Positions 11,556 to 61,765 of a stretch of DNA of 64,000 bases are shown here, piece after piece; the first letter of the stretch is position 1, and every line of letters begins with the position of its first letter. Below the pieces are notes generated by a model. It was given only the letters and a program-made list of their open reading frames with translations, made no database searches and was not told the origin of the DNA. The position numbers and the translations under genes were made by a program. The stretch is taken from the NCBI RefSeq assembly GCF_900103365.1, contig NZ_LT629703.1, forward strand, positions 4,946,501 through 5,010,500. The letters are read 5' to 3'. Source of the stretch: Afipia sp. GAS231. Lineage in GTDB: Bacteria; Pseudomonadota; Alphaproteobacteria; Rhizobiales; Xanthobacteraceae.

Positions 11556-11608
11556 TTCAAATTTCTCCCAATGACTGAAACGCGCAAAATGAACGGGCGG
11601 TCGCTTCG

Positions 11609-12157
11609 CTATCGATTTGGGTAGTGAGATTGTTTCCCCGCTCGTTCGATGGCCGCCACGATCAGCCGACGCGCTTCTTCCGGGCCGCCCCAGCCGATCA
11701 GCTTGACCCACTTCCCGGGCTCCAGGTCCTTGTAGTGCTCGAAGAAATGCTGGATCTGCTCGCGCGTAATGGTCGGTAGATCGTTGTAACTGTAAATACT
11801 CTCGTAACGCTTGGTCAGTCGGGGGACCGGGACGGCGATAATCTTCTCGTCCCCGCCACCGTCATCCTGCATCTTGAGGACGCCGATCGGACGAACGTTT
11901 ATAACGGCCCCCGGTATGATCGGACGGGTGTTCGCCACTAGCACGTCTATCGGGTCGCCATCGTCAGACAGGGTGTGCGGCACAAAGCCATAGTTGCCTG
12001 GATAGCGCATCGGCGTGTGCAGAAACCTGTCGACCACAAGCGTTCCGGATGCCTTGTCCATCTCATACTTTATCGGTTCGCCGCCGATCGGAACCTCGAT
12101 GATAACGTTGACGTCATCAGGTGGATTATGGCCGATATGGATCGCATCTATCTGCAT
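11609..12157 (-). CDS. ppa: Inorganic pyrophosphatase (family I)
   Basis: A 182-residue soluble pyrophosphatase. '[16 protein letters not shown]' and '[12 protein letters not shown]' precede the acidic metal-binding signature '[10 protein letters not shown]', all diagnostic of family I. It hydrolyses PPi to two phosphates with Mg2+. It is transcribed just ahead of adk, so PPi and AMP, the two by-products of AMP-forming ligases, are handled by one transcription unit. Housekeeping ppa elsewhere in the genome cannot be excluded. Confidence 0.95.
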
Positions 12158-19322: not shown

Positions 19323-19909
19323 GCGAAGTGCAGCGAACGTATCCGCAAAATGTCGACTGCAATGGTGTCGACGTTCGATTGGACATGATGTCGGCTGGCG
19401 ACGAGCAGGACGTCCTCGCCTTCGCGCGGTCGCTGCCGGAGAAGGACCTTCTCTTCATGCGCCGGGACATCCGGCAGGCGAAGGTAGTGGCAGCCTGGTC
19501 CGAACTAATCGAGCAGGGGCGACTGGCAAGCCTGCTGGCCTGGAGCGGTGACAAGGTGGTAGGCTGCACCGCGCTTATCGTCGACCCCCTTTCGTGGTCA
19601 CCCCATGTCGGCGAGCTTCGTGTGATCGTCAGCCGTGACATGAGAGGGCTTGGGCTCGGCCGGGTAATGATCCAGGAGGGGTTCGCAATGGCTCTTTCCA
19701 AAGGGCTCGAAAAGCTCGTCGCACAGATGACCATCGATCAACAATCGGCCATTGCCGTATTTGAAGGTCTCGGGTTTCGCGGCGAGGCGCTGATGCGCAA
19801 TCACGTGAAAGATGCCGATGGCGGAAAGCACGACATCGTTCTTCTTAGTCATGACGTCGCGAGGGTTCAATCGCAAATGGAAGCGTATGGATTGACCGAC
19901 GCGTTCTAG
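19319..19909 (+). CDS. GNAT-family N-acetyltransferase
   Basis: A 196-residue acetyltransferase starting at an ATG (19319) that overlaps the phaC stop. The acetyl-CoA binding motif A is 'VSRDMRGLGLGRVMIQEG' (R-x-x-G-x-G), followed by 'AIAVFEGLGFRGEALMRNHV'. It should transfer an acetyl or acyl group from CoA to an amine. Coupling to phaC suggests a role linked to PHA or CoA metabolism, perhaps modification of a granule or pathway enzyme; the acceptor is unknown. Confidence 0.85.
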   Translation: MSEVQRTYPQNVDCNGVDVRLDMMSAGDEQDVLAFARSLPEKDLLFMRRDIRQAKVVAAWSELIEQGRLASLLAWSGDKVVGCTALIVDPLSWSPHVGELRVIVSRDMRGLGLGRVMIQEGFAMALSKGLEKLVAQMTIDQQSAIAVFEGLGFRGEALMRNHVKDADGGKHDIVLLSHDVARVQSQMEAYGLTDAF

Positions 19910-19928
19910 AAGCAACGGAGACACCCAG

Positions 19929-21575
19929 ATGCCGGATTCACTGATCGAATGGACGCCCTCGGCCTACAAGTATCCGTTGCTGATCAAGCAGTTGCTGCAC
20001 GCGCCAATGCTGCATGCTCTGGATCGGGAGATCGTCTATCGGGACGTCGGCCGATATACCTATCGCGACTTGAAGGAGCGAATCGGCCGCCTGGCAACTG
20101 CACTCGCCTTGAAAGGCGTCGTTCACGGCGACGTCGTCGGAGTGCTGGATTGGGATAGCCACCGCTACCTTGAGTGCTATTTCGCGATTCCGATGATGGG
20201 GGCGACCCTGCAGACGGTTAATGTGAGGCTTTCGCCCGAGCAGGTGCTTTTCACTCTGAACCACGCGCGGCCAAAGCTGTTGCTGGTCAATGTCGAGTTC
20301 CTGCCGCTGGTCGAACAGCTGCGCGACAAGCTCGAAACCGTCGAAGGCATTATCGTGATGACCGACGACGACGGCAGCCCGAAAATAAGCGATGGATTTG
20401 CCGGGAATTATGAAGCATTGCTCGCAGCCAGCGGAGCTAACTTCGAGTTTCCTGATTTTGACGAGAATACCCGCGCAACCATGTTCTATACGACAGGAAC
20501 GACGGGCGTTCCGAAAGGGGTCTATTTTAGCCACCGTCAGCTCGTGCTACATACCCTGATCGACTTGGTTGGCTTCGGGTCCCCGGCAGTGCAGGGACGA
20601 TTTCACCGCGAAGACGTCTATATGCCAATCACGCCAATGTTCCACGTCCATGGCTGGGGACTGCCCTATGCGGCGACGGCCGCCGGTGTGAAGCAGGTTT
20701 ATCCCGGCCGGTATCAGCCCGAACTTCTCCTGAACCTGATCAAGACCGAGGGCGTCACTTTCAGCCATTGTGTGCCGACGATCCTGCAAATGCTGTTGTC
20801 CGCACCCAATAGCGGGGACGTCGATCTTTCCAAACTGAAAATGGTGATCGGCGGTGCAGCACTCTCAAAGGCGCTGGCCAAGGCTGCGATGCAGCGCGGT
20901 ATCGATATTTTTGCCGGTTACGGCATGTCGGAATCCGGTCCCATCCTGACGATAGCGCAGCTAAGGGAGCATGAGCTGACCGGAAACCTCGACGAAGAGG
21001 TCGAGCTTCGCACCAAAACCGGGACGCCGGTGCCGTTAGTCGACTTCCGCATCGTCGATGGCCACATGAAAGATGTCGCTCACGACGGGCGAACCGCAGG
21101 AGAAATCGTCGTCCGCGCACCGTGGCTCACGATGGGATATCTTAATAACCCTTCTTCTTCGGAAAAGCTCTGGGAAGGCGGTTATCTGCATACCGGCGAC
21201 ATCGGCACCATGACCGCGAACGGCGTCGTCCAGATCACCGACCGCATCAAAGATGTGATCAAGACGGGGGGGGAGTGGATCTCGTCGATAGAGCTCGAGG
21301 ACATCCTGCTCCAGATGCCAGGCTTGAGCGAGGCGGCGATCATCGGCATTGCGGATGCAAAATGGGGCGAGCGACCGCTCGCCATCCTGGTCGCACGGCA
21401 AGCCGGCAGTGTCGACAATGCAACCGTGCAAAAGCACGTCAAAGCGTATGCCGATAAAGGTGTCATTTCGCGCTTTGCCATTCCAGACAAGATCATGTTT
21501 GTCGACGCGCTCGACAAGACAAGCGTCGGCAAGATCGACAAGAAGGTGCTGCGCGCCAAATACGGCGACGGCTGA
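19929..21575 (+). CDS. AMP-forming fatty-acyl-CoA synthetase
   Basis: A 548-residue ANL-superfamily ligase. The P-loop is 'YTTGTTGVPKGV' near residue 185, 'YGMSESGP' the adenine-binding A5 motif, 'LHTGDIG' and 'ITDRIKDVIKTGGEWIS' the A7-A8 hinge region, and 'KTSVGKIDKKVLR' holds the catalytic Lys. It activates a carboxylic acid to its acyl-CoA with release of AMP and PPi. It resembles medium/long-chain acyl-CoA synthetases. It lies 19 bases after the GNAT gene, and the products of this enzyme could feed both the 3-hydroxyacyl-CoA dehydrogenase and PhaC. Confidence 0.92.
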   Translation: MPDSLIEWTPSAYKYPLLIKQLLHAPMLHALDREIVYRDVGRYTYRDLKERIGRLATALALKGVVHGDVVGVLDWDSHRYLECYFAIPMMGATLQTVNVRLSPEQVLFTLNHARPKLLLVNVEFLPLVEQLRDKLETVEGIIVMTDDDGSPKISDGFAGNYEALLAASGANFEFPDFDENTRATMFYTTGTTGVPKGVYFSHRQLVLHTLIDLVGFGSPAVQGRFHREDVYMPITPMFHVHGWGLPYAATAAGVKQVYPGRYQPELLLNLIKTEGVTFSHCVPTILQMLLSAPNSGDVDLSKLKMVIGGAALSKALAKAAMQRGIDIFAGYGMSESGPILTIAQLREHELTGNLDEEVELRTKTGTPVPLVDFRIVDGHMKDVAHDGRTAGEIVVRAPWLTMGYLNNPSSSEKLWEGGYLHTGDIGTMTANGVVQITDRIKDVIKTGGEWISSIELEDILLQMPGLSEAAIIGIADAKWGERPLAILVARQAGSVDNATVQKHVKAYADKGVISRFAIPDKIMFVDALDKTSVGKIDKKVLRAKYGDG

Positions 21576-21623
21576 GAGTTCAAGAAATGGACATCTGTTT
21601 GAGCTATTGCTCGATTAATAAAA

Positions 21624-21657
21624 CGTGACCCTGGCTATAACTGAGGCCGGGATCACG
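21624..21657 (+). repeat. Imperfect hairpin before the phasin gene
   Basis: CGTGACCCTGGC (21624-21635) pairs with GCCGGGATCACG (21646-21657) with one mismatch and one wobble around a 10-base loop. It has no T run on the plus strand. It may be a weak terminator after the ligase gene, or a stabilising stem at the 5' end of the phasin message. Confidence 0.35.
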
Positions 21658-21710
21658 ACAGGATGCAAAGACGCGGCACGCAGAAAACAATCTGGAACCG
21701 GGAGAGTAAA

Positions 21711-22133
21711 ATGGCCGACAAGACCGTCATGGATATGTTCGCCGACATGGCCAAGCAGATTAATTTGCCGAAGATCGATTATGACGCGTTTCTCGACATC
21801 CATCGCAAGAACATTGAGGCACTGCAAAAATCTGCTTCAACCCTGTCTGACGGCGGGCGTGCCGTCTTCGCAAAGCAGCAGGAGATCCTGACGGAGGTGG
21901 CGCGGGAGGCACGGCAACAGATCGCTGACTTCAAGCCGGTCGGTTCACCCACAGAAGTCGCAGCCAAGCAGGCGGAGTTGGTGCGACGCGTTTTTGAGGC
22001 GACGGTCAGGAATACCAAGGATGTCGCCGAACTGGTCCGGACGTCAGGCAGCGAAGCGCCGAAGATTATTCTTGAGCGCATGCGTGAGAGCGTTGCCGAG
22101 GCGCGGGCGGCCGTGGAGTCAGGAAGAGCCTGA
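21711..22133 (+). CDS. Phasin family protein
   Basis: A 140-residue helical, heptad-rich protein starting at ATG 21711 after a GGGAGAG site. 'DYDAFLDIHRKNIEALQKSA' is the typical phasin N-terminal helix, followed by 'VAREARQQIADF' and a long amphipathic helix to the end. Phasins coat PHA granules and limit their size. Its place in the phaC cluster supports this. The frame is open upstream from 21663 but that leader is not phasin-like. Confidence 0.88.
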   Translation: MADKTVMDMFADMAKQINLPKIDYDAFLDIHRKNIEALQKSASTLSDGGRAVFAKQQEILTEVAREARQQIADFKPVGSPTEVAAKQAELVRRVFEATVRNTKDVAELVRTSGSEAPKIILERMRESVAEARAAVESGRA

Positions 22134-22355
22134 ACCGTGGTTGCCCGCCGTTGGAAGGGGACACGAAGAGTCTGCTGCAATGCGGAAGGACCGTGACTCG
22201 GAAGGAGCCTCTGAAGCGAAGTACGTGATTTTCGCGAGCCGGCTTGCGGAGACGAGCCCAAAGGTCCGTACTGCAAGTCGTCGAGCCCCTGACCATGTTG
22301 CCAGGGCCGTCGCCATGAAACGTTCAAACGCCTTAACCTGAGGGTGCGCACCAAG

Positions 22356-23120
22356 ATGAAAAAAGAGGACGTGCTCAAGCAGTACACGACGCCGACGGGA
22401 GCTCCGGCTTTTGTTCCAGGCCCGCATCGCTTCACATCGCGCGAGTATCTAAACATCACCTACCGGACGGACCGGGAGGCTCTCCTCAAGCAGGTTCCCG
22501 AACCCCTGGAAGTCGACGAGCCGCTGGTGCGCTTCGAAGTGATGAACATGCCCGACACCACCGGCTATGGCTCATATGTCGAATGTGGGCAGGCGGCGGT
22601 CGTGCGGCACAAGGACGAAGTCGGCGAATACATCATCGGGATGTATCTCGACAACCTGCCGGCAATTGCCGCTGGCCGCGAACTCAGTGCTTTCCCGAAG
22701 AAGCTCGGTTCGGCGAAGCTGTTCGTCGATTCCGATACGCTGGTTGGAACGCTGGATTACGGCACGCTCAGCGTCGCCCGTGCGACGATGGGCTACAAGC
22801 ACAAGCCGATGGATCTGGAGAAGGCGCGGCAGGAAATCTGCGTCCCCACCTTCATGCTGAAAATTCTTCCGAGCTATACGAAACGCCCGCGCATTTGCGA
22901 ACTGGTTCGCACCGAGATCACCAACATCTCCGTGAAGGGCGCGTGGCGCGGACCGGCCCGGCTGCAACTGTTCGAGCACGTGCTGGCGCCGCTTGCGGAT
23001 CTTCCCGTCCGCGAGATCATTTCGGCCACGCATATCCTGACCGATCTCACGCTTTCGCCGGCCGTTGTCATCTACGACTATCTCACCGACAGCGCGCCTT
23101 CGGCCGGTCCAGGGGAATAG
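22356..23120 (+). CDS. Acetoacetate decarboxylase family protein
   Basis: A 254-residue protein. With the ATG at 22356 as residue 1, Glu76 ('SYVECGQ') and the adjacent Lys115-Lys116 ('SAFPKKLGS') fall at the same numbers as the catalytic Glu76, Lys115 and Lys116 of Clostridium acetobutylicum acetoacetate decarboxylase, which supports both start and function. The Lys forms a Schiff base with a beta-keto acid, giving CO2 and a ketone. In this cluster it may drain acetoacetate released from acyl-CoA turnover. Some homologues act on other keto acids. Confidence 0.9.
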   Translation: MKKEDVLKQYTTPTGAPAFVPGPHRFTSREYLNITYRTDREALLKQVPEPLEVDEPLVRFEVMNMPDTTGYGSYVECGQAAVVRHKDEVGEYIIGMYLDNLPAIAAGRELSAFPKKLGSAKLFVDSDTLVGTLDYGTLSVARATMGYKHKPMDLEKARQEICVPTFMLKILPSYTKRPRICELVRTEITNISVKGAWRGPARLQLFEHVLAPLADLPVREIISATHILTDLTLSPAVVIYDYLTDSAPSAGPGE

Positions 23121-23129
23121 GCTGATATC

Positions 23130-24092
23130 ATGGCCACAGCTCAACAGGATATTCTGAACCGATATTCGAAGGTTACGGTGATCGGCGCCGGCGTCATTGG
23201 CGCGTCGTGGACGGCGCTGTTTCTGGCGCACGGTCTGGCGGTGGTTGTCAACGATCCGCGCCCGGATGTCGAAACCATCGTCCGCGATTATATCCGCAAC
23301 AATCTGTCGACGCTTGGGGAGCTAGGGCTGCCGACCGATAACCTGGAAAAGCGGCTGAGCTTCGAGGCCGATCTCGAACGCTCGGTGACAGGCGCCGATC
23401 TGGTTCAGGAAAACGGACCGGAGCGGATCGAGTTCAAACAGGACTTATGGGCGCGCATCGGCAAGGTCGTTGGAGAGCACGCGCTGATGCTTTCGTCGAG
23501 CTCCGCCAAGACTGCGACGGAGCAGGCGTTGAAGATGTCCCGGCCCGAGCGGCTGCTGGTGGGGCATCCCTTCAACCCGCCCCATTTGATACCATTGGTC
23601 GAAGTCGTGCCCGGCGAGAAGACGAGCCCGGAGGCGGTGGATGACGCGGTCGCGTTCTACGCCGCACTCGGCAAGGTGCCGCGCGTCGTGCGCAAGGAAA
23701 TGCCCGGCTTCGTTGCCAACCGCCTGCAACGGGCGATTTTCCGGGAATGCTGCTACCTCGTTATCCAGGGCGTCGTCAAAGTCGATGAACTCGACGACAT
23801 CGTGACCAGTTCGATCGGCCTGCGCTGGGCGGCGGACGGCCCGTTCCGCTCGTTCCATCTCGGTGGCGGCGCGGGTGGGTTCAAATCGTTCTTCAAGCAG
23901 TTCGGTCCGGGTCTCAACGAGGCCTGGAAGAACATGGCGGCTGTCGATCTGGACGAGGCGGCGCAGGACAAGATCATCGCGCAGGCCGAGGCATCCTTTG
24001 CCGCGCAACCTCCCGAGCAGCTCGAGAGTGAACGCGACGCCAAGCAACTGGCGATCATCCGCGCGCTTAGGGACGTGCAGGCGGGCAAATAA
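23130..24092 (+). CDS. 3-hydroxyacyl-CoA dehydrogenase NAD-binding family protein
   Basis: A 320-residue dehydrogenase. 'VTVIGAGVIGASWTALFL' is the NAD-binding Rossmann motif; 'LSSSSAKTATEQA' and 'GHPFNPPHLIPLVEVV' are the HAD/L-carnitine dehydrogenase family motifs carrying the catalytic Ser and His, and 'EMPGFVANRLQRAIFRE' starts the C-domain. It oxidises a 3-hydroxyacyl substrate to a 3-keto product with NAD+. It begins 9 bases after the acetoacetate decarboxylase gene, so the keto product may be the decarboxylase substrate. L-carnitine dehydrogenase is a close alternative. Confidence 0.88.
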   Translation: MATAQQDILNRYSKVTVIGAGVIGASWTALFLAHGLAVVVNDPRPDVETIVRDYIRNNLSTLGELGLPTDNLEKRLSFEADLERSVTGADLVQENGPERIEFKQDLWARIGKVVGEHALMLSSSSAKTATEQALKMSRPERLLVGHPFNPPHLIPLVEVVPGEKTSPEAVDDAVAFYAALGKVPRVVRKEMPGFVANRLQRAIFRECCYLVIQGVVKVDELDDIVTSSIGLRWAADGPFRSFHLGGGAGGFKSFFKQFGPGLNEAWKNMAAVDLDEAAQDKIIAQAEASFAAQPPEQLESERDAKQLAIIRALRDVQAGK

Positions 24093-24152
24093 CGCAGGCT
24101 GCAATCGCGTCGTCCAGGCCGGCGCCGGAGCACGACCAACGGGAGGAACGAG

Positions 24153-25355
24153 ATGGGACTTTTGTTCGAGGGTTTGAAGGTGATCGATTGCGGCAGCTTC
24201 ATCGCAGCGCCGGCAGCGGCCACGATTCTGTCCGACTTCGGCGCCGATGTTGTCAAGATCGAGCCGCCGGGGGCAGGGGATCCTTACCGGCATCTCACCA
24301 AGCTTCCCGGCCATCCGAAGAGCGACCAGAACTATGCGTGGATGCTCGGTTCGCGCAACAAGCGCAGCCTCGCGGTCGATATGGGGAAGCCCGAAGGCAG
24401 GGCCGCGGTCCAGCGTCTCGCCTCGCAAGCCGATGTGTTCATCACCAACTATCCCGCCGCGGTCCGCAAGAAGCTTGGCATCGGCTATGAAGCGCTGGCG
24501 GCGCTGAACGACCGGCTGATCTACGCGTCGTTCTCCGGCTATGGTGAGAACGGCGCCGAGGCGACCAAGCCGGGCTTCGATGTCACGGCATGGTGGGCGC
24601 GGTCGGGTTTGATGGACACCGTTCGCGCGTCGTCGGAAGCGGTGCCGGTGCGGCCCGCGAACGGCATGGGCGATCACTCTGCCGGCTTCACGCTCTATTC
24701 GGGCATCGTGATGGCGCTTTATCAGCGCCAGAATACGGGGAAAGGCACCGAGGTCTCGTCGTCGCTGGTGGCGAACGGGCTCTGGGCCAACGGCTACAAC
24801 GCGCAGGCGGCCTTGTGCGGCGCGACCTTCACGGACCGTCCGGCGCGCGAAGTCGCATTCAATGCGCTGACCAATTACTACAAGTGCCGTGACGGTCGCT
24901 GGCTGATCCTGACCATTCTCAATGAAGAAAAGCAGTGGCCGGAATTCATGAAATGCCTGGATCGCGGGGATCTGACCGAGGACCCGCGCTTCGCCAAGAA
25001 GGCGGACCGATTGACGCGATCTCACGAATTGATCGCCTTGCTCGACAAGGAATTCGCGAAATTCGATCGCCCGGAATTGCGAAAGCGCCTGACGGAAAGA
25101 GGGATCGTGTTCGACGTCGTGGCCACGCCGGAGGATATTCCGTCGGACCAGCAGCTCCTCGACAACGACATTCTTATACCCTTCGTCGACAGCGAAACCA
25201 GGACGATCAATAGCCCTATTGCCCTGCGTGGCGTGGACAAGGCGCAACCAAGGATGCCGCCTTCGGTAGGCCAGCACAGCGACGAGGTGCTGAAGGAGGC
25301 TGGATACGACGCGGCGGCGATCGCCCAGATGCGGGCTGCCGGTGCCATCGGCTGA
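24153..25355 (+). CDS. CaiB/BaiF family (class III) CoA transferase
   Basis: A 400-residue class III CoA transferase. It opens with the family pattern 'LKVIDCGSFIAAPAAATILS' and 'GADVVKIEPPGAGDPYR', has 'NKRSLAVDM' and the catalytic Asp174 in 'NGMGDHSAGF', matching the GD-x-x-x-G site of formyl-CoA transferase. It moves CoA between carboxylic acids without ATP. It sits between the hydroxyacyl-CoA dehydrogenase and an SDR gene on one strand. Acceptor and donor are not predictable. Confidence 0.92.
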   Translation: MGLLFEGLKVIDCGSFIAAPAAATILSDFGADVVKIEPPGAGDPYRHLTKLPGHPKSDQNYAWMLGSRNKRSLAVDMGKPEGRAAVQRLASQADVFITNYPAAVRKKLGIGYEALAALNDRLIYASFSGYGENGAEATKPGFDVTAWWARSGLMDTVRASSEAVPVRPANGMGDHSAGFTLYSGIVMALYQRQNTGKGTEVSSSLVANGLWANGYNAQAALCGATFTDRPAREVAFNALTNYYKCRDGRWLILTILNEEKQWPEFMKCLDRGDLTEDPRFAKKADRLTRSHELIALLDKEFAKFDRPELRKRLTERGIVFDVVATPEDIPSDQQLLDNDILIPFVDSETRTINSPIALRGVDKAQPRMPPSVGQHSDEVLKEAGYDAAAIAQMRAAGAIG

Positions 25356-25399
25356 GCAACGACCATCCAGAACCATTTTTGTTTCATCAGGAGCGACGC

Positions 25400-26176
25400 A
25401 TGAAAATCGAAGAGCTGTTCTCGGTCCGGGGGAAGGTGGCCCTGGTCACCGGCGGGAGTCGCGGTCTCGGCGAAATGATCGCCCGCGCCTACGTCGAAAA
25501 CGGCGCCAAGGTCTATATCACCGCCCGGCGCGCCGAGGCCTGCGAGGCGCTTGCAAAGGAGCTGTCGCAGTTCGGCGAATGCATTGCGATCCCGGCGGAT
25601 CTGTCACGGATGGAAGAGATTGCTCGGCTGGCCGGCGAGCTGCACAAGCGGGAGAAGAAGCTCGATATTCTCGTTAACAATGCCGGCGCAAGCTGGGGCG
25701 CGACCTTCGCCGAGTTCCCCGAGAATGGTTGGGACAAGGTGATGGATCTCAACGTGAAGTCGGTATTCTTCCTGACCCAGAGTCTGCTCGACCTGCTGGA
25801 AGCGGCAGGATCGGCGAATTCCTACTCGCGGGTGATCAACATCGGTTCGATCGAGGGCATCCGGACGTCGCATCTCGAAGCCTACTCATATGCGGCGTCG
25901 AAAGCAGGCGTGAACCACCTGACGCGCATCATGGCAAAGTTTCTCGCGCCAAAGCACATTGCGGTCAACGCAATTGCGCCTGGCTACTTCCCGTCGAAAA
26001 TGACCGATGCGATCGATGAGCATGGTGCCAAGGAAGTCGTCGACGATGCGCCCATGAAACGCATGGGACATGCGGACGATCTCGCGGGCATTGCGATCTA
26101 CCTCGCCTCGCGAGCCAGCGGCTTCGTCTGCGGTGCGGTCATTCCGGTCGACGGTGGTTTGGCCACGACGGCGTAA
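25400..26176 (+). CDS. SDR-family oxidoreductase
   Basis: A 258-residue SDR from ATG 25400 after an AGGAG site. 'LVTGGSRGLGEMIA' binds the cofactor, 'NNAGASWG' the NNAG motif, and 'INIGSIEGIRTS' with 'YSYAASKAGVNHL' provide Ser, Tyr and Lys. 'CGAVIPVDGG' closes the fold. It reduces or oxidises a hydroxy/keto pair; being last gene of the PHA/acyl-CoA unit, an acyl-CoA intermediate is plausible (a 3-ketoacyl reductase role would feed PhaC). It is close in sequence pattern to the SDR at 37700-38491. Confidence 0.9.
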   Translation: MKIEELFSVRGKVALVTGGSRGLGEMIARAYVENGAKVYITARRAEACEALAKELSQFGECIAIPADLSRMEEIARLAGELHKREKKLDILVNNAGASWGATFAEFPENGWDKVMDLNVKSVFFLTQSLLDLLEAAGSANSYSRVINIGSIEGIRTSHLEAYSYAASKAGVNHLTRIMAKFLAPKHIAVNAIAPGYFPSKMTDAIDEHGAKEVVDDAPMKRMGHADDLAGIAIYLASRASGFVCGAVIPVDGGLATTA

Positions 26177-26289: not shown

Positions 26290-27660
26290 TTAAGACGTCA
26301 ATCCGGTCTCGATAGCTGGTTCGTTCAGGACCTCGGTTGGGTCCGCAGCCTTTACGATTATCAGCAACAGCAAGCCGGACAGCAGGTAGGCTCCCACAAT
26401 AAGATAGGTGCTGTAGAGCGAGCTGCCCGTCGTCGCGGAAATGTAGCCCGTGAGGGAAGGTGCGACGGCCGGGCCCAGATTGCCGAGGCTGCTTATGAGC
26501 GCGATGCCGCCGGCGGCGCTCGCCTTGGACAGGTACTCGGTGATGGTGGTGAAGAACAAAGGCGTCGCCGAAATGAACCCGAGGCCGGCGAGCGTCAAGC
26601 CTATGATCGATGCCAATAAATTGCCGTTGGAAAATGTGATGGCCAACAAGCCGACTGCCGCGACGGCTACGCAGGTGGCGTAGTGCCATCGCCGCTCTCT
26701 GGTCTTGTCCGAGTGACGTCCCATCAGAATCGTGCCGATGATGCCTGCAATCTGCGGCAAGGTGGCGAGCAGTCCGACGTGCAACAGATCGGCGACGCCC
26801 CAGCTTTTGATCAGCGAGGGAATCCAGAACACCATGGTGTAGGTCGCGCCCAGCAGCAGAAAGTAGGTGAAGGCGAGGCCGTAGACTTTCGGATCTTTCA
26901 GCATCTGGAAGAACCCGGCGTGGTGAGCGGTCTCGACGTCCTTGTGATCGTGGTCGAGCTGGAAGCGCAGCGCTGTTTTTTCCTCGGTGCTCAGCCACTT
27001 GGCGTCTTCAGGTTTGTCCTGAAGATAGAAGTAAGCGACGAGACCGAGGATTGACGCTGGCACGCCTTGGGAAATGAAGAGCCACTGCCAGCCGTGCCAA
27101 CCCTCGATGTCGTTGAAATATTTCATCGTTGCGCCGGAAAGCGGGCCGGCAATCACGGACGCGATGGCCGTTGCGGTCATGAACATCGCGATGATCTGGC
27201 CGCGCCGCGCTGAGGGGTACCAGTATGTCAGATAGAGTATGATGCCCGGAAAGAAGCCCGCTTCGAGCACGCCAAGCAGGAACCGTGCGATATAGAATTG
27301 CACCGGCGTCTGCACGAATGCCATTGCACAAGCGACAATGCCCCAGGTGAACATGATGCGTAGCAGGGTCTTGCGAACCCCGATGCGCTCGAGCAGCAGG
27401 TTGCTGGGTACTTCGAACAGGAAGTAGCCGACGAAGAATATGCCCGCGCCGAAGCCGTAAGTCGCATCGCTGAAAGTCAGCGTCTGCTTCATTTGAAGCT
27501 GGGCATATCCGATATTGATGCGATCCAGGAACGCGATCATGTAACAAAGAATCAGGAAGGGTAGAATCCGCCAGCCTATCTTGGAGAACAGCCTTGTGAC
27601 GGCAATTGGCTCCTTGTCAGCAGAAGGAACCGTACGGACGCCGGTTGCGTGCATAGCCAT
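26290..27660 (-). CDS. MFS transporter, anion:cation symporter (ACS) family
   Basis: A 456-residue permease with 12 predicted helices. 'YMIAFLDRINIGYAQLQM' in helix 1 and 'LFEVPSNLLLERIGVRK' in the loop 2-3 area are hallmarks of the ACS family (phthalate, glucarate, tartrate permeases). 'RFLLGVLEAGFFPGIILYLTYWYP' is also typical. It imports an organic anion with H+. It faces the PHA cluster tail-to-tail and shares its terminator. The upstream region 27661-28600 carries no gene, so it appears to be transcribed alone. Confidence 0.9.
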   Translation of the reverse strand: MAMHATGVRTVPSADKEPIAVTRLFSKIGWRILPFLILCYMIAFLDRINIGYAQLQMKQTLTFSDATYGFGAGIFFVGYFLFEVPSNLLLERIGVRKTLLRIMFTWGIVACAMAFVQTPVQFYIARFLLGVLEAGFFPGIILYLTYWYPSARRGQIIAMFMTATAIASVIAGPLSGATMKYFNDIEGWHGWQWLFISQGVPASILGLVAYFYLQDKPEDAKWLSTEEKTALRFQLDHDHKDVETAHHAGFFQMLKDPKVYGLAFTYFLLLGATYTMVFWIPSLIKSWGVADLLHVGLLATLPQIAGIIGTILMGRHSDKTRERRWHYATCVAVAAVGLLAITFSNGNLLASIIGLTLAGLGFISATPLFFTTITEYLSKASAAGGIALISSLGNLGPAVAPSLTGYISATTGSSLYSTYLIVGAYLLSGLLLLIIVKAADPTEVLNEPAIETGLTS

Positions 27661-28600: not shown

Positions 28601-29824
28601 TCATTGGGTCACAAGCCGGCATCTGCTGGTAGAGAGTGGTTGGAAAGCTTCATCGCCCGGGATGATCTCTTTCACGTTGTAATAGTCCCACTTCTCCTTG
28701 ACCTCTCGAGGTGTCTTCACCTGCACTAGGTACATGTCGTGGACCATGCGGCCGTCGGCGCGGATCTTGCCGTTGCGCGCGAACATGTCGTTGATCGGCG
28801 TAGACTTGAGCTGCTTCATGACTGCGCCCGCTTCGTCGGTCTTCACCGCCTGCACGGCTTTCAAGTAGCTCGTCACTGCTGAATAGGCGCCAGCTTGCAC
28901 GAAGTTCGGCATCTTGCCGAATTTGGCGAAGAAGCGCCGGCTCCACTGCCGCGAGAGATCATCGAGGTCCCAGTAGAACGGCTCGACCAGGATCATGCCC
29001 TGCGTCGCCGCGGCACCAAGCGCATTGACCTCGGTGATGGTGCCGACCAGCGGCACGATGGTCTGGCCCGGCGTGATGCCGAAATCCTGTGCCGACTTGA
29101 TCGAATTCAACAGGTCTGCGCCGGCATTGGCGAACCCGATCACCTTGGCCTTCGAGGCTTGCGCCTGCAGAAGGAACGAGGATAGATCGGTGGTGCTGAT
29201 CGGGTGGTAGACCGTGCCGACCACTTTCCCGCCGGAGCGGGCAATCGCATCGGACGCTTCCGCCACCAACGACTTGCCAAGCGCATAGTCGACCGCGACG
29301 AAATACCAGGTGTCGAGGCCGAGCGACTTCACGATGCGCGACTGGCCGTTGGCGTAGGAATAGGTATCCCATGTGTAGCTGATGGCGTTGGGCGAACACT
29401 GCTCGTTGGTCAGCCGGGTCGAGCCCGAGCCGGTAACGATCAACATCCGGTTCTTGCTTTCCGCGACGCTCGAGACGGCCAGCGCTACGCCGGAATTGAT
29501 TACGTCGGTGATCATGTCGACGTTGCCGGTATCGTACCATTGCCGTGCGATGCCGGTGGCGATGTCCGGCTTGTTCTGGTGGTCGGCCGAGACCAACTCG
29601 ACCTTGAACGAGGGCTTCTCGTTCTCGACGAAATCATCGATCGCCATCTGCGCTGCGGTGACCGCGCCGGCGCCGGCGATATCGGAGAACAGGCCGGCCA
29701 TGTCGGTGAGGACACCGATCTTGACCGTGCCGTCGGAAATGCCTTGCGTTTGCGCAGGCGCGACCGTGCCGGCAGCCGTCAGCATTGCGGCCGTGACGGC
29801 CGCCCGTATGAGTCCTACCTTCAT
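28601..29824 (-). CDS. ABC transporter substrate-binding protein (branched-chain amino acid/aromatic type)
   Basis: A 407-residue periplasmic type I binding protein. A signal peptide ('MKVGLIRAAVTAAMLTAAGT' then 'VAPAQTQ') is followed by 'VKIGVLTDMAGLFSDIAGAG', the usual first lobe start, 'INSGVALAVSSVAESKNRML' and 'DYALGKSLVAEASDAI'. The C-terminus 'EKWDYYNVKEIIPGDEAF' is typical of the subgroup that binds aromatic acids and similar compounds in rhizobia and Rhodopseudomonas. No permease or ATPase genes are nearby, so it is an orphan that must use a distant ABC system. It lies 56 bases downstream of the FAD monooxygenase-esterase gene on the same strand. Confidence 0.9.
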   Translation of the reverse strand: MKVGLIRAAVTAAMLTAAGTVAPAQTQGISDGTVKIGVLTDMAGLFSDIAGAGAVTAAQMAIDDFVENEKPSFKVELVSADHQNKPDIATGIARQWYDTGNVDMITDVINSGVALAVSSVAESKNRMLIVTGSGSTRLTNEQCSPNAISYTWDTYSYANGQSRIVKSLGLDTWYFVAVDYALGKSLVAEASDAIARSGGKVVGTVYHPISTTDLSSFLLQAQASKAKVIGFANAGADLLNSIKSAQDFGITPGQTIVPLVGTITEVNALGAAATQGMILVEPFYWDLDDLSRQWSRRFFAKFGKMPNFVQAGAYSAVTSYLKAVQAVKTDEAGAVMKQLKSTPINDMFARNGKIRADGRMVHDMYLVQVKTPREVKEKWDYYNVKEIIPGDEAFQPLSTSRCRLVTQ

Positions 29825-29880
29825 TGCATTCTCCCTTGCCGCGCGATTTGCTCCGCGCTCGTTTCGGTACCCATCGCGAC

Positions 29881-32037
29881 CTATTCGGCGGCCTGTGTCC
29901 TCGTATCGTTCCGACGCAAGTTTCGGCGGGCCCAGGCCGCGACTTCGTCCATCGTCGCCTTTGTCTCGGGCAGGAACGGGAAGATCGGGTAGACGTGGAC
30001 GGAGTCCTCGACGATGCGTAGCGTCACGTCGACGCCGGCCTTGTCCGCGCGTTCGGCGAGCCGCGTGGCGTCGCTGAGCAGCACCTCGCCCTGGCTTGCC
30101 GTGACGAACAGCGGAGGTAGACCGGCCAGGTCGCCGAACAGCGGCGACACCAGCGGATCGGTCGGCTCGTGGCCCTGGAAGTAGGACGCGCCCATGAACG
30201 TCAGCAGGTCGCGGTTGGCGGCGGGATCGTCGCCGTTGAAGGCGCGCATGCTCGGTCCCGACAGCGTCAGATCCGTGAACGGCGCAGCGGCAAAGATCGC
30301 CCCCGGCAAGGGATCGCCGGCATTGCGCAGAGCCAGTACAAGTGCCAGCGCCAAGCCTCCGCCGGCGGATTCGCCGGAGACCATGATCGAGCTCGCGGGA
30401 ATACCGCGCGTAAGCAAAGCGCGATAGGCCGCCACCGCATCATCGATCGCCGCCGGATAGGGATGTTCAGGCGCCAGCCGATAATCGACGGTGTAGCAGG
30501 TGCCGTCGACCGCCGCGGCCAGCCGGCTGGCATATTCGAGCGAACCCTTCGCCGATCCGATCAGATAGCCGCCGCCATGGAAATGCAGCACGACATTGCC
30601 GCGCAGCGCATCCAGTGCCGCGACGCGCCAAGCCTTGACGTCGCCAAGCTCGTCCTCGACCGCACTCACGCCGTCAGGCAAAGGAAAATTGGTGCTGAGG
30701 AAGCGGTCATAGGCTTCGCGCAGCCCGTCATGGCCGCGCGCGACGTCCTCGGGGCGGAACGCGAATTTCCAGAGATCGAGGGCGCGTTGGCTCTCCGGGC
30801 GTTGCAATCGCTTGCCTTCGCGCAAGCCGGTGACATTGAGAACTTCGCCGGGCGGCCCCTCGACCGACTTCACGACATTATAATCCCAGGCCAGGCCCCA
30901 GCTCGTTTCTGCCAGCGGATCGATCCGCGCCATTCCTTTCCAGCGGCCGTTACGATCGCGTAGCCGGTTCTCTTCCGTCTCGTGCATCAATTTCACGACC
31001 GCGCGTGCGCCGGCCTGGATCCGCGTCGTGCGCGGCAAACGTCGGCGCTCATACTCCTTGAGCGCGCCGGGCACGTCGTCCTGGCGCCGCGCCAATACGC
31101 GCGCAAGGGTCCAGGCATCCTCGATGCTCTGGCCGGCACCGGCGGCGAGGAACGGCACCATCGGATGCGCGGCATCGCCGAGCAGCGTGATGCGGCCGGA
31201 GCTCCAGCTATCGATTGGGTCGCGGTAATACATGCCGGTGATGAAGACACTGCGGCACTCCTCGAGCATCGCGCGGGCGCGTGGCTCGGCATCGTCGAAG
31301 GAGCGCAGCATCTCGGATATGTCGCCGCTTTCGTCCCAGGATTCACGCGTCACTTCGCTCGCGGGCACCGAGGCCAGAATGCTGTAGAGGTTCTTCGGCC
31401 GCACCCAATAGGTGATTAGCGTGCGGCCGGGGCCAAACCAGTAATTGCCGCGCTCTTCCAGATTGAGGCCCTCAAGCTGCTCCGCGGGGATCAGCGAGCG
31501 CCACATCAGGATGTTGGCAAAATGCTTCTGCTCCTCGCCGCGCAGATGGTGGCGCACCACTGAGTGGATGCCGTCGCAGCCGACAAGCACGTCGCCGTGC
31601 ACGGTCGAGCCGTCCTGCAGCGTGACGTCGACGCCGTCGGCATCCTGCGACACCGCGGCGACGCGGGCGCCAAACCGCTTGGCCTCCACCGGCACGGCCT
31701 CGGAGAGGATCTGGACCAGGTCGGCGCGATGAATGTTGTACATCGGCGCGCCATAGCGATCCGCCGCCTCGTCGCCGAGCGGCGCCTGGTAGAGCATCTT
31801 GCCGCTGCGCAGATCGCGATAATCGTAGGATAGCGGCTTGACGCCGACCGCGCGAATGGCGGTTTCCACGCCGAGCTCGCGCAGCACAATCGCCGCATTG
31901 GCGGCGATCTGGATGCCGGCGCCGATCTCGGTCAGCACCTTGGCCTGTTCGAGCACGAGGACTTCGATGCCTTGATGGCGCAGCGCAATCGCAGTAGTCA
32001 GTCCGCCGATGCCGCCGCCTGCAATGAGTACGCGCAT
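29881..32037 (-). CDS. Fused FAD-dependent aromatic monooxygenase and HSL-family esterase
   Basis: A 718-residue two-domain protein in one uninterrupted frame. Residues 1-360 are a class A flavoprotein hydroxylase: 'IAGGGIGGLTTAIAL' (FAD), 'GCDGIHSVVR' (153-162, DG motif) and 'LLGDAAHPMVPFLAAGAGQS' (285-304). After a linker (about 360-440), residues 440-718 are an HSL-type hydrolase: 'FHGGGYLIG' (486-494), 'VSGESAGGGL' with nucleophile Ser557, Glu651 in 'SQGEVLLSD' and His681 in 'DSVHVYP'. Usual lengths are about 400 and 300, so both are complete. It would hydroxylate an aromatic ring and cleave an ester. It is first in a unit with a binding protein and is divergent from a TetR gene. Confidence 0.92.
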   Translation of the reverse strand: MRVLIAGGGIGGLTTAIALRHQGIEVLVLEQAKVLTEIGAGIQIAANAAIVLRELGVETAIRAVGVKPLSYDYRDLRSGKMLYQAPLGDEAADRYGAPMYNIHRADLVQILSEAVPVEAKRFGARVAAVSQDADGVDVTLQDGSTVHGDVLVGCDGIHSVVRHHLRGEEQKHFANILMWRSLIPAEQLEGLNLEERGNYWFGPGRTLITYWVRPKNLYSILASVPASEVTRESWDESGDISEMLRSFDDAEPRARAMLEECRSVFITGMYYRDPIDSWSSGRITLLGDAAHPMVPFLAAGAGQSIEDAWTLARVLARRQDDVPGALKEYERRRLPRTTRIQAGARAVVKLMHETEENRLRDRNGRWKGMARIDPLAETSWGLAWDYNVVKSVEGPPGEVLNVTGLREGKRLQRPESQRALDLWKFAFRPEDVARGHDGLREAYDRFLSTNFPLPDGVSAVEDELGDVKAWRVAALDALRGNVVLHFHGGGYLIGSAKGSLEYASRLAAAVDGTCYTVDYRLAPEHPYPAAIDDAVAAYRALLTRGIPASSIMVSGESAGGGLALALVLALRNAGDPLPGAIFAAAPFTDLTLSGPSMRAFNGDDPAANRDLLTFMGASYFQGHEPTDPLVSPLFGDLAGLPPLFVTASQGEVLLSDATRLAERADKAGVDVTLRIVEDSVHVYPIFPFLPETKATMDEVAAWARRNLRRNDTRTQAAE

Positions 32038-32068
32038 GGATGGTCTCCGCCCGAATTTTATTGAGTGG

Positions 32069-32080
32069 ACTTAATTAAGT
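32069..32080. promoter_or_regulatory. 12-bp palindrome ACTTAATTAAGT between the monooxygenase-esterase and TetR genes
   Basis: A perfect 12-base palindrome in the AT-rich divergent promoter (32038-32113), followed by a related GCTTAAATTAGG. It is a good candidate operator for the adjacent TetR protein and would control both directions. Confidence 0.55.
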
Positions 32081-32113
32081 GATTTCGCTTAAATTAGGAC
32101 AGGAGTGATTTGG

Positions 32114-32815
32114 ATGTCAAGCAGGTCACGACCGGGGGCGCGCGCGACCTCGGAAGAAACCAGGAACCAGATTAAAGCGGCAGCGCAGATGCTGTTCGCG
32201 CGCCGCGGCGTGGACGGTGTGACCTTGCAGGAGATCGTCAATGCCGCCGGACAACGCAACAATGCGGCGCTGCACTATCATTTTGGCTCCAAGGAGGAAT
32301 TGATCCGCCAGATGGTGGTCGATGGTGCCACCGTGCTCGACCAGCGCCGTAGGGATATGCTGGACGAAATCGAGGCCCGCGGCGGACCCAAGAGTATCCG
32401 CGAGGTGATGCTGGTGCTGATGATGCCGGTGATCGAACTCGGCGAGGATGAACGCTGGCGCGGCTATATCCGCTTCACCTCGAACCTTCAGGCGTCCGAT
32501 CCGAAGACGCTGCGTGCCGCGCTCAACAACCGCTGGAACTCGGGCTATGTCGCCTGTTTCAATTATCTGAAGCTGATGCTGCCACTGCCAGCCGCGATCA
32601 TCGAGCAGCGCCTGTCGATGTTTACGATCTATGCCAATTCGATCCTTTCCGCGCATGAAGCCGCGCTGGAATCCCACAACACCAGGAACAGCCGGCTGTG
32701 GGGGCAGCCCTTCACGATCGAGAACATGCTCGATACGCTCGAGGCCGCCCTGACGTGCCCTCTTTCCAGCCAGACGTTGACGAAGCTGCGCGAAGCGAAG
32801 GCGCCGACCGGATGA
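32114..32815 (+). CDS. TetR-family transcriptional regulator
   Basis: A 233-residue TetR regulator from ATG 32114. The DNA-binding domain reads 'IKAAAQMLFARRGVDGVTLQEI', then 'AGQRNNAALHYHFGSKEELI'; the insertion 'QRNNAAL' before the Tyr-His-Phe is seen in a TetR subgroup linked to aromatic-compound catabolism. The C-domain contains 'MPVIELGEDERWRGYIRF'. It is divergent from the monooxygenase-esterase/binding-protein unit with a shared operator region, so it probably represses it until the substrate is present. A GTG at 32105 is an alternative start. Confidence 0.88.
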   Translation: MSSRSRPGARATSEETRNQIKAAAQMLFARRGVDGVTLQEIVNAAGQRNNAALHYHFGSKEELIRQMVVDGATVLDQRRRDMLDEIEARGGPKSIREVMLVLMMPVIELGEDERWRGYIRFTSNLQASDPKTLRAALNNRWNSGYVACFNYLKLMLPLPAAIIEQRLSMFTIYANSILSAHEAALESHNTRNSRLWGQPFTIENMLDTLEAALTCPLSSQTLTKLREAKAPTG

Positions 32816-35946: not shown

Positions 35947-37119
35947 TCACGCATTGGCGATATTGGGAGACGCCGCGGGGAGGGCCTTTTGAGCCGGCTT
36001 GTCCAGCTTCTTCGACCATGAGCGGTAGTAGGCCAGGCTTGTCATCAACGCGATCCCGACGACGCTCACCAGCACCTGCATCCAGATGGCGTCCGAAACT
36101 TCAACAAGAATGATGTGTGCTGCGCCAGCAAGGAAGATGCCGTAGCAGAAGACCTCAAGTGACTGCTGCCCACAAAGGATCATTGGCCGGAAGATCGGTC
36201 GGTCAAATCCGGCCCAATCACGCGGCACGTACCTGATGATGAAGAACGTGACAATCAGGAAATGAACGATGCGGGACGGGTCGAGGTTGGTCTTGTCGTT
36301 CGGAATAGACGCGACGTAGAGCCAATGGGGCAGGATGTCCTGCATGTTCAGGAAGCGTCCGCCCAGCGTGACGAACAACGCAAACAGGAGATACACAGCG
36401 CCAGGGATCGTAAGCCAGCGCGATTGCACCAGCGGCATGGACTGCCTGGTGCCGCCCAGCGCAAACCATGCGCCGATCGTGAAAAGGAACTGCCAGGTGA
36501 ACGGATTGAAGTACCAGGAGCCTGCAGGATAGGCCGCCAGATTCCAGCCAAAATGGCGGGCCGCGAGATACAGGGCAAGGGACGCGAACAGCGTCAGGTT
36601 CGGCTTGCGCAGCAGCGCCCACAGCACTGGCGGAAACACCACCATCAGAACGATATAGAGCGGCAACACGTCCATGTTGACCGGTTTGAACGCTAGGATA
36701 AGACCCTGATATAGCGTTTCGGCGGGGTCGTGCATGAAGCCCGCTACGTTGAATTCGCCCAGCAACTTCGGATCGTTATATTTCTTCGCGAGATAACCGA
36801 CCTCAGCGATATAGATGACAAACAACACGAGGTGTGCGACGTAAATTTGCCAAGCCCGTTTGAAGACGCGACTGCCGGCAATGATGAAGCCGCGGCCGAT
36901 CATCATTCGCCCATAGACGAACGCGACGGTGTATCCCGAAATGAAAATAAACAGATCGGCAGCGTCCGCGAATCCGTAGTTCCGTGTCGTGATCCAGTTG
37001 ACCACATTGTTCGGAATGTGATCGAGAAAGATGGCCCAGTTCGCGATCCCGCGAAGCATATCGAGCCGATAGTCGCGCCCTTGCGGGGGCAGTTGGACCT
37101 GGGGTGAGACTTGCATCAC
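35947..37119 (-). CDS. OpgC-domain membrane protein
   Basis: A 390-residue integral membrane protein with about ten helices. The start 'RDYRLDMLRGIANWAIFLDH' and 'FADAADLFIFISGYTVAFVYG' are the signature of OpgC-type acyltransferases, which succinylate periplasmic glucans in proteobacteria. 'KRAWQIYVAHLVLF' is also characteristic. It probably modifies a periplasmic glycan or is a membrane acyltransferase of unknown target. It begins 4 bases after the stop of the small monooxygenase-like gene, so the two are co-transcribed. Confidence 0.87.
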   Translation of the reverse strand: MMQVSPQVQLPPQGRDYRLDMLRGIANWAIFLDHIPNNVVNWITTRNYGFADAADLFIFISGYTVAFVYGRMMIGRGFIIAGSRVFKRAWQIYVAHLVLFVIYIAEVGYLAKKYNDPKLLGEFNVAGFMHDPAETLYQGLILAFKPVNMDVLPLYIVLMVVFPPVLWALLRKPNLTLFASLALYLAARHFGWNLAAYPAGSWYFNPFTWQFLFTIGAWFALGGTRQSMPLVQSRWLTIPGAVYLLFALFVTLGGRFLNMQDILPHWLYVASIPNDKTNLDPSRIVHFLIVTFFIIRYVPRDWAGFDRPIFRPMILCGQQSLEVFCYGIFLAGAAHIILVEVSDAIWMQVLVSVVGIALMTSLAYYRSWSKKLDKPAQKALPAASPNIANA

Positions 37120-38623: not shown

Positions 38624-39409
38624 TCAAGTTCCGGAGAAAACGCGTGGCGAGCGGCTCGGCCCGTTTGCGACAAAGGACTTGATTGCGCCAGTCGCATCGT
38701 TGCTCGCCATGACCGGACCGACCATTTCAAGGGTCGTCCGGTCGGCAGCCCTGACGCCTTCCTTCTCCCATGTGCGAAGTATGGCCTTTACGGCGTCGTA
38801 CGCCTTTGTCGGGCCCGCCGCCAACCGGGTCGCGAAAGCTTCTGATTCACTTTCGAGAACATCGGCAGCTAACACGCGATTGACGATGTTCCACTTCTCG
38901 AACGTCTCTACATCGTAGAGCGCGCCGGCCGTCGCAATTTCGAACGCCCGGACGTGACCGGCTCGGGAAGCCACACGCTGCGCGCCGCCGGCTAGTGGGA
39001 AAATCGCCAGCAGAGGCTCGAGAAAACCGATCTTGGTGCCTGCGGCTGCCCAAAGATGATCGAATGCGAGCGCAAACTCCAATCCGCCGGAGGAGCATAC
39101 ACCATGAACTGCAGCGATCGTCGGTAATGGAAGCGCTTCAATCGCCTGTATTAGCTCGACATATTCCCTGACGGCGGACAGCATCGCATCGCCGGGTTCC
39201 GACAGCATTTCGTTGACGTCCGCTCCGAGGGAGAAAACTGCTCCCTCCGCCCTCACGAGAACGGCGCGCACATCGGGTTTCCTGGCCTGCGCGAGAGCTT
39301 CCTGAAGTCCGCGCAGCACGGCGCGGTTCATACGGTTGCCGTCCGGATTTGCCAGCGTAACGATCAGAAGCCCCTCTTTGCGCGCGGTGCGTACCTGCTC
39401 GATCGACAT
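38624..39409 (-). CDS. Enoyl-CoA hydratase/isomerase family protein
   Basis: A 261-residue crotonase-fold protein from ATG 39409. 'GADVNEMLSEPG' and 'HGVCSSGGLEFALAFDHLWA' form the oxyanion hole, and the two Glu residues expected of hydratases align: one in 'GGLEFAL', one in 'GFLEPLLAIFPLAGG'. It would hydrate or isomerise an enoyl-CoA. The frame is open upstream to 39505, but the extra residues are not family-like. It leads a minus-strand pair with the SDR at 37700-38491. Two tandem 23-bp repeats lie about 130 bases upstream. Confidence 0.88.
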   Translation of the reverse strand: MSIEQVRTARKEGLLIVTLANPDGNRMNRAVLRGLQEALAQARKPDVRAVLVRAEGAVFSLGADVNEMLSEPGDAMLSAVREYVELIQAIEALPLPTIAAVHGVCSSGGLEFALAFDHLWAAAGTKIGFLEPLLAIFPLAGGAQRVASRAGHVRAFEIATAGALYDVETFEKWNIVNRVLAADVLESESEAFATRLAAGPTKAYDAVKAILRTWEKEGVRAADRTTLEMVGPVMASNDATGAIKSFVANGPSRSPRVFSGT

Positions 39410-41564: not shown

Positions 41565-42308
41565 CTAGAACGATTCGCCGGACGGGCGCAGATCGATTTC
41601 TTGCGTCCAAGCCGTCGCGGGTTGCCGATGGACGCACCAGTAGGCCTCAGCGATTGCATCGGGTCCGAGCAGGCCGGTCTCACCCTTCTCGGCGACCCGT
41701 GCAGGCTGCAAGGTACGCAGGCGATCGCCGTTGATGCCGCCGTCGATCACCGCATGCGCGACATGGATTCCGAATGGTCCGAATTCGCGCGCCATACTCT
41801 GACTGATCATCCGCAGACCCGCCTTCGCGGCGGCGAAGTGAGCATAACCTGGCTTGCCCCGGATGCTGCCGGATGCTCCTGTAAACAACACGGTGCCACG
41901 CCCCAATGGAACGAGCCGACGTGCTGCTTCTCGCCCGATCAAAAAGCCTGCAAAGCAGCCCACCCGCCAGAAGTCCTCGAATAGCTCAGCCGACAGCTCG
42001 CGGAAGTCGAGGCGCTGGTTATTGCCCGCATTGAAAACGACCAGGTCTGGCGCAGCAAGGTGATCTGTTTCTGTGAAAGCCCGATCGAAAAGAGAAATAA
42101 CGCTTTCTTCTCGTGCGGCGTCCACCTCGACTGGCTCGGCGCTGCCGCCGGTTGCCTTGATGCTGCCGACGACTTGCCTGAGCTTCGCGGCGGTCCGCCC
42201 GCCGACGAAGACGTGGTACTGCTCCGCGGCAAACTTGCGGCAGAGGGCGGCGCCCAGCCCCTGCTCAGCCCCAACGCCGACGACGATCGCCGATGGTTTC
42301 TTGTTCAT
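41565..42308 (-). CDS. Atypical SDR-family protein with Phe at the catalytic Tyr position
   Basis: A 247-residue SDR. The start 'AIVVGVGAEQGLGAALCRKF' is a degenerate dinucleotide motif and 'VFNAGNN' the NAG site, but the catalytic Y-x-x-x-K reads 'GYAHFAAAKAG' with Phe158 and Lys162. The nearby Tyr155 is not at the right spacing. The C-terminus 'ATAWTQEIDLRPSGE' is shared with two other SDRs here. Its ATG overlaps the stop of the upstream MDR gene (ATGA), so they are coupled. Whether it keeps dehydrogenase activity is open. Confidence 0.88.
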   Translation of the reverse strand: MNKKPSAIVVGVGAEQGLGAALCRKFAAEQYHVFVGGRTAAKLRQVVGSIKATGGSAEPVEVDAAREESVISLFDRAFTETDHLAAPDLVVFNAGNNQRLDFRELSAELFEDFWRVGCFAGFLIGREAARRLVPLGRGTVLFTGASGSIRGKPGYAHFAAAKAGLRMISQSMAREFGPFGIHVAHAVIDGGINGDRLRTLQPARVAEKGETGLLGPDAIAEAYWCVHRQPATAWTQEIDLRPSGESF

Positions 42309-61687: not shown

Positions 61688-61765
61688 ATCGGCCAGGGCC
61701 GGGGCTTCCCGCGGCTTTTCGCGCGGTTGCTCCGAGCGTTCGAAAAGAACATCAGGGAGGTCGTC

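Follow-up and report, generated by a model that had tools for sequence, protein, structure and literature searches.

A conserved fusion protein of flavin monooxygenase and HSL-type hydrolase, with a putative TetR switch, in Afipia sp. GAS231

The locus described here lies in the one-contig, 7.58 Mb genome of Afipia sp. GAS231, within a 64,000-nucleotide stretch (positions 4946501-5010500) that was analyzed as a whole and is called the window below. Its central gene encodes a flavin monooxygenase and a hydrolase in one reading frame. The features are as follows, in window coordinates:

29881..32037, minus strand: fusion gene, flavin monooxygenase plus HSL-type hydrolase, 718 aa (from the ORF list, Pfam, motifs and a structural model)
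30859..32037, minus strand: group A flavin monooxygenase domain, residues 1-393
30808..30858, minus strand: linker, residues 394-410 (AlphaFold2 pLDDT <50 at 400-405)
29914..30807, minus strand: HSL-type alpha/beta hydrolase domain including its cap, residues 411-708
31498..31500, minus strand: Arg180, aligned with TrlE Arg185, a proposed carboxylate ligand (Arg in 282/282 aligned rows)
31420..31422, minus strand: Thr206, aligned with His213 of TrlE and of 3-hydroxybenzoate 6-hydroxylase (3HB6H)
30367..30369, minus strand: Ser557, predicted nucleophile of GESAG (Ser in 160/160 rows of the window's subfamily)
30085..30087, minus strand: Glu651, predicted triad acid (Glu in 281/282 rows, Asp in one)
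29995..29997, minus strand: His681, predicted triad histidine (His in 277/282 rows)
28601..29824, minus strand: periplasmic binding protein, 407 aa, 56 bases downstream of the fusion (Peripla_BP_6, 326.1 bits; cut-off 31.7)
32075..32092, no strand: operator-like palindrome, consensus TTAAGYGAAATNRCTTAA (from window, genome and locus comparison)
32114..32815, plus strand: divergent TetR-family regulator (ATG start; a GTG start at 32105 is possible; TetR_N 43.5 bits, over cut-off)

The single 718-residue frame reported by the initial annotation was confirmed in the ORF list, and both Pfam domains exceed their cut-offs: FAD_binding_3 over residues 2-340 (104.9 bits; cut-off 22) and Abhydrolase_3 over residues 483-683 (175.1 bits; cut-off 25). 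The first domain score, together with the FAD motifs GGGIGG (residues 7-12), D155-G156 and GDAAHP (287-292), places the N-terminal half among the group A flavoprotein aromatic hydroxylases. In a 282-row alignment of the fusion family, GD and His291 are found in every row and the GxGxxG glycines in 278, the other four being gaps. The C-terminal half carries HGGG (487-490), GESAG (555-559), Glu651 and His681, and by score and motifs it is an HSL-type alpha/beta hydrolase domain, as complete as was first described. The AlphaFold2 model of the fusion has a mean pLDDT of 91.2 and a pTM of 0.89. These features place a flavin monooxygenase of group A in one protein with a serine hydrolase of the HSL type whose triad is predicted to be intact.

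The same two domains recur together in other organisms. Three protein searches (E<=0.001) returned 2521, 2821 and 2373 relatives, and PF01494 and PF07859 were both present in the best 120 of each, which comprise 267 different proteins. Sources named among the matches listed were Bradyrhizobium, Chelatococcus, Novosphingobium, Solirubrobacteraceae and Trebonia. Fused relatives P0105, P0107, P0113 (799 aa) and P0196 (805 aa) are about 80 residues longer. The genome itself has a second full copy, 85% identical. Fusion matches occur in 17 of 146 genomes of the genus at E<=1e-100 (own genome counted), and 27 of 391 genomes in a family sample match at 1e-85, 21 with a fusion and six with a standalone hydroxylase of 40-45% identity. 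The fusion is rare in the sampled genomes at these E limits, since only the window's genome and one of the same genus matched in a phylum sample (2/398, E<=1e-85) and in an order sample (2/397, E<=1e-100, with a query from locus L084).

Ratios of dN/dS between the fusion and its paralog are 0.166 for the hydroxylase, 0.114 for the linker and 0.101 for the hydrolase, and those of the hydrolase half range from 0.057 to 0.134 across five comparisons. Mean pairwise identity among nine chosen rows of the window's subfamily is 65.6% in the hydrolase versus 61.3% in the hydroxylase. The dN/dS values support one real polypeptide under purifying selection. The idea that a lost stop or an assembly error fused two genes can be practically dismissed: nothing in the window suggests it, no stop or frameshift lies near codons 360-440, homologues are not all split into two genes, and independent genomes share length and frame with the window's fusion, as the second copy confirms from within the same genome, against which stands only a broken frame in the hydrolase half of one relative, L083.

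One branch separates 38 fused from 15 standalone rows in the hydroxylase-domain tree (SH-aLRT 85; standalone rows long-branched), and one branch separates 38 fused from only five standalone rows in the hydrolase-domain tree (SH-aLRT 99). Because fused rows occupy one side of a branch in both trees, a single origin of the fusion is likely but not proven. No hydrolase-domain match (E<1) flanks the six standalone hydroxylases of 40-45% identity within 20 kb (L071, L074), 17.6 kb (L075), 11 kb (L073), 4.7 kb (L072) or 4.1 kb (L067), where a split ancestral pair might have been seen. The fusion is true and conserved, and in the open-access literature searched we found neither a report of such a hydroxylase-hydrolase fusion nor an experiment on one, in keeping with the initial annotation, which knew of no characterized example. 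Passages of PMC11878206 on monooxygenases, FAD and nucleophiles likewise name none.

Many of the named relatives listed are labelled “salicylate hydroxylase”, a label the window's member fails to earn by score: it reaches 154.9 bits with TIGR03219 (salicylate 1-monooxygenase; cut-off 446.35). Identity with 3HB6H is ruled out in the same way (NF006021, 277.6 bits; cut-off 459), and the active-site His213 of that enzyme is replaced by Thr206; a true NF006021 member lies elsewhere in the genome (C1:3192017, 550 bits). The best hydrolase model, NF058651 (GESAG subfamily HSL), gives 266.7 bits, yet its cut-off is 430.

The residue-role passages of PMC11110157 and PMC11921375 describe the His at the position equivalent to Thr206 as a putative general base in NahG, NicC and 3HB6H. 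In the tropone 2-monooxygenase TrlE, the H213A variant lost product formation, and the authors assign His213 a subsidiary role; the counterparts of Arg180 and Tyr210 are proposed there to hold the substrate carboxylate (PMC11110157). Tyr210 is kept in 266 of the 282 aligned rows, with Phe in the remaining 16. The hydroxylase first called complete has its FAD motifs, but the pocket His of 3HB6H and TrlE is Thr206. Gln at column 299 was considered as another catalytic loss and set aside, since Ser occupies that column in 3HB6H.

Most of the closest flavoproteins of solved structure are ring hydroxylases. TrlE (PDB 8rqh, from Streptomyces) differs from the window's protein in having His213 for Thr206 and no fused hydrolase in the solved chain, and 3HB6H (PDB 4bjz) differs by the score and the Thr noted above. 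The hydrolase fold matches the true esterases E40, EstD11 and Est8, which are standalone bacterial HSL (family IV) enzymes, whereas the window's domain forms the C-terminal part of a fusion. Vitamin B6 and nicotinate breakdown use separate proteins for their flavin hydroxylase step and their alpha/beta hydrolase step. These pathways resemble the window's fusion in placing a flavin monooxygenase step before or after a hydrolase step; they differ in using two proteins, and MHPCO matches the fusion weakly, at about 85 bits.

For the neighbourhood comparison, 71 fusion matches in fetched loci were reduced to 36 distinct ones, 25 of which have a hydroxylase identity of at least 73%. A divergent, adjacent TetR gene is found in 23 of these 25 loci, the exceptions being L025 (10 kb flank) and L029 (313 bases of flank). 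The TetR frame and the palindrome at 32075-32092 are as initially described, and the palindrome recurs at <=1 mismatch in 22 of the 25 loci, with 2 mismatches on the other strand in L039, 4 in L029 and 8 in L025. Scanning both strands of the window at <=3 mismatches located it at one place (0.20 expected; 2 matches were reached by 2 of 100 shuffles). Throughout the genome, at <=2 mismatches, it is confined to the two modules, with an exact match on one strand at each, which rules out a regulon beyond these modules at that threshold, there being no third operator. The same pattern read backwards gave 5 genome matches at <=2 mismatches, so matches at this level mean little alone, and the weight rests on the two exact sites at two modules and on recurrence in other genomes. 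A promoter and terminator scan found no sigma-70-like promoter and no terminator near the operator. With its TetR_N domain and conserved intergenic palindrome, the regulator would be a TetR repressor with its own operator, the binding being putative, and the pair looks like a dedicated switch.

Downstream of the fusion, the binding protein begins with what resembles, as judged by eye, a Sec signal. Its Peripla_BP_6 domain is that expected of a binding protein in HAAT (branched-chain type) ABC uptake, and its best solved relatives, 3i09 (386 bits) and 3n0w (289 bits), are entries named as branched-chain amino-acid binding proteins. The aromatic-binding protein 4f06 matches at 2.9e-7 only, and the description of the window's protein as aromatic-type is not supported. 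There are 18 matches to it in the genome at E<=1e-20, itself counted. In 15 of the 25 loci the gene that directly follows the fusion in the same orientation encodes the binding protein; of the other ten, L018 carries a 51% binding protein at that place in the opposite orientation, and L041 offers 63 bases of flank. On the co-occurrence that the initial annotation proposed to test, the TetR travels with the fusion and the binding protein often does. No HAAT permease or ATPase was found among the window genes scanned, a scan that left out frames such as 35947-37059, 38624-39409 and 41565-42308, and the module was consequently not borne out as a self-contained unit.

The second full module of the genome (C1:3014356-3018547; L042) has a TetR of 73% identity, the operator, the fusion at 85% and the binding protein at 88%. 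Its outer neighbours differ: an amidohydrolase, a metallo-beta-lactamase fold protein, an M29 peptidase and two alpha/beta hydrolases. In the window, the plus-strand genes at 18243-26176 match PHA synthase, acyl-CoA ligase, the acetoacetate decarboxylase family, 3-hydroxyacyl-CoA or carnitine dehydrogenase, CoA transferase and SDR, and are likely a CoA-linked catabolic operon. An MFS transporter gene (26290-27660, minus strand) lies downstream of the module on the same strand; its matches to the permease models for D-galactonate and 4-hydroxyphenylacetate stay below cut-off. Another HSL-type esterase has a frame of its own (16342-17430, minus strand), which scores 281.6 bits with the LipP1 family model (cut-off 350). 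A wider fixed operon around the module was rejected, as the MFS gene has no relative (E<=1e-15) in the other fetched loci and the nearby SDR reaches only 28-32% elsewhere.

The fusion family divides into 160 rows like the window's fusion and a sister subfamily of 122 rows with <44.5% identity. Loci of more distant fusions lie in other surroundings. In L084, a Bradyrhizobium guangzhouense plasmid with a 37% sister-subfamily fusion that seven Bradyrhizobium plasmids matched alike, the genes are FAA hydrolase, SDR, fusion, FAA hydrolase, gentisate-dioxygenase-like cupin, leuC and leuD, a member of the isocitrate lyase family and ABC genes of the branched-chain type. A similar cupin is divergent from the 38% sister fusion of L045, near which there is also an aldehyde dehydrogenase. 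The best NCBIfam model of both cupins is gentisate 1,2-dioxygenase, at 252.1 bits (L084) and 215.7 bits (L045), neither of which reaches the cut-off of 442.1. The fetched window-type loci, with flanks between 63 bases and 32 kb, hold nothing related to the L084 cupin at E<=1e-15. Elsewhere the Afipia genome encodes a true gentisate 1,2-dioxygenase (613.9 bits), and in 14 control genomes that model matched in 4 and passed its cut-off in none. The 46% fusions of L043 and L044 are near ABC genes of the branched-chain type and a P450 that carries a ferredoxin-type domain (assigned in L044 through clustering with L043), and L044 also has a CoA-transferase-like gene. Genes for leuC and the isocitrate lyase family recur near the fusion in two distant subfamilies (L084:9515-20930 and L082:16169-19979), perhaps as a side branch of gentisate breakdown through maleylpyruvate or citraconate. 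The contexts of relatives suggest aromatic acid breakdown with differing entry substrates.

Our tentatively favoured reading, which we hold at somewhat less than even confidence, is that the fusion serves catabolism as a ligand-inducible cytoplasmic enzyme with two steps, the release of an aromatic acid from its ester and then the hydroxylation of that acid, where we infer both substrate and order. TetR would repress the module until an imported aromatic compound binds it, and the binding protein would probably hand the substrate to a shared transporter. The hydrolase would cut an ester or closely similar acyl bond to give an aromatic acid, which Arg180 and Tyr210 would hold by its carboxylate in the flavin site. 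Hydroxylation there could yield a dihydroxy acid of the gentisate kind, which may pass to ordinary ring-cleavage enzymes encoded elsewhere in the genome. The identity of the ester, and cutting before hydroxylation, are guesses. The conserved fusion, intact triad, esterase fold match, Arg180 and Tyr210, TetR with its palindrome and gentisate-type neighbours argue for this two-step enzyme. Thr206, the lack of an L084-type cupin in window-type loci, the ten of 25 loci in which the fusion is not directly followed by a binding protein gene in its own orientation, the promoter scan and the five backwards-control operator matches argue against it. The simple ester reading is weakened because the pocket is without its usual His, the sister subfamily is mostly without Ser and CoA ligases are found in the clade of 63-65% identity. 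The initial interpretation is thereby supported in part: the fused polypeptide, the TetR with its operator-like site and, often, the binding protein stand, and the self-contained unit, an aromatic ligand of the binding protein and an aromatic ester or lactone as substrate stay conjectural.

The two subfamilies differ at both active sites. Thr occupies the Thr206 column in 157 of the window's 160 rows, versus His in 119 of the 122 sister rows. The Ser-Glu-His triad is entire in 159 of the 160, with Asp for Glu in one, while the sister nucleophile column reads Cys in 90 rows, Asp in 16, Gly in 10, Ser in 4, Asn in 1 and Glu in 1. Since the sister subfamily is mostly without Ser, Ser-based ester cutting is not the common job of the whole family. 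It is possible, if on the doubtful side, that this is one old family whose active sites changed together, with a hydrolase chemistry that is subfamily-specific, acts, with intra-chain transfer, on a flavin-site intermediate or on the acid that feeds this site, and is not always ester hydrolysis. By this co-change, the window's half may have kept the Ser hydrolase and lost the flavin-site His, and the other half may have done the reverse, acquiring Cys, Asp or Gly many times with Glu and His retained; we regard this too as rather less probable than its opposite.

The same column bears on an alternative in which the hydrolase acts after the monooxygenase, on an ester, lactone or ring-opened oxygenation product, and the nucleophile variants reflect different products, as the Cys nucleophile does in dienelactone hydrolase. 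At least 12 changes at the nucleophile column are required on a 38-row tree, and the sister subfamily nonetheless keeps Glu651 in all 122 rows and His681 in 117, with its hydrolase as conserved as its hydroxylase (48.8% versus 47.5% identity), which fits this order. The invariant Ser of the window's subfamily and the predominance of ring hydroxylases among the nearest solved flavoproteins make it rather unlikely.

A CoA-thioester route would have a ligase activate an aromatic acid, the flavin half hydroxylate the aryl-CoA and the hydrolase half free the acid from CoA, for which the salicylyl-CoA to gentisate route is the model. An AMP-forming CoA ligase (c12) is close downstream of the fusion in all five loci of 63-65% identity with enough flank (L076, L077, L078, L082 and L083), and L043 has AMP-binding ligase and acyl-CoA dehydrogenase genes nearby. 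In the six loci of the 65% clade, all from the same bacterial family, a binding protein is next downstream in five and the window-type TetR adjacent in none; L077 has a 31% TetR match about 5 kb off. L082 (65%) groups the ligase with a VanA-type Rieske oxygenase, a different TetR, a 4HBT thioesterase, an isochorismatase, an isocitrate lyase family gene and leuC. On L083, a related Paraburkholderia plasmid, the relative of about 60% (9977-12066) has a 43% TetR beside it and no adjoining binding protein of this kind; its hydrolase half is interrupted, the plasmid gene table has no gene there, and upstream of it lie a TetR gene and an inverted repeat. The ligase and thioesterase neighbours of this clade point to CoA esters. 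The thioesterase of L076 and L082 is, however, a separate protein that would leave no need for a fused one, and the HSL relatives of solved structure are esterases. The modules of the window's own clade showed no ligase of this kind; the window ligases (20475-21536, 47428-48933 and 61712-63277) match c12 at only about 28-29%. We therefore consider this route unlikely for the window's protein.

The hydrolase domain might instead chiefly shape or stabilize the flavin enzyme, as a dimer contact or substrate gate, its own catalysis being dispensable. The domain is retained in the 10 of 282 rows with a Gly nucleophile, and the pTM of the model suggests a set packing. The triad kept in the window's subfamily and the low dN/dS of the hydrolase half speak against it and leave it quite improbable.

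The two-step enzyme thus remains our tentative preference, and the linked divergence of the two active sites is the most interesting open point of the family. The nucleophile swaps of the sister subfamily form a natural series for exploring how an esterase fold shifts its chemistry once it is joined to an oxygenase. The TetR and its palindrome could be a ready-made sensor. Equipped with a regulator and in many loci a binding protein of its own, the fusion would offer a handle on a still unnamed aromatic compound of soil.
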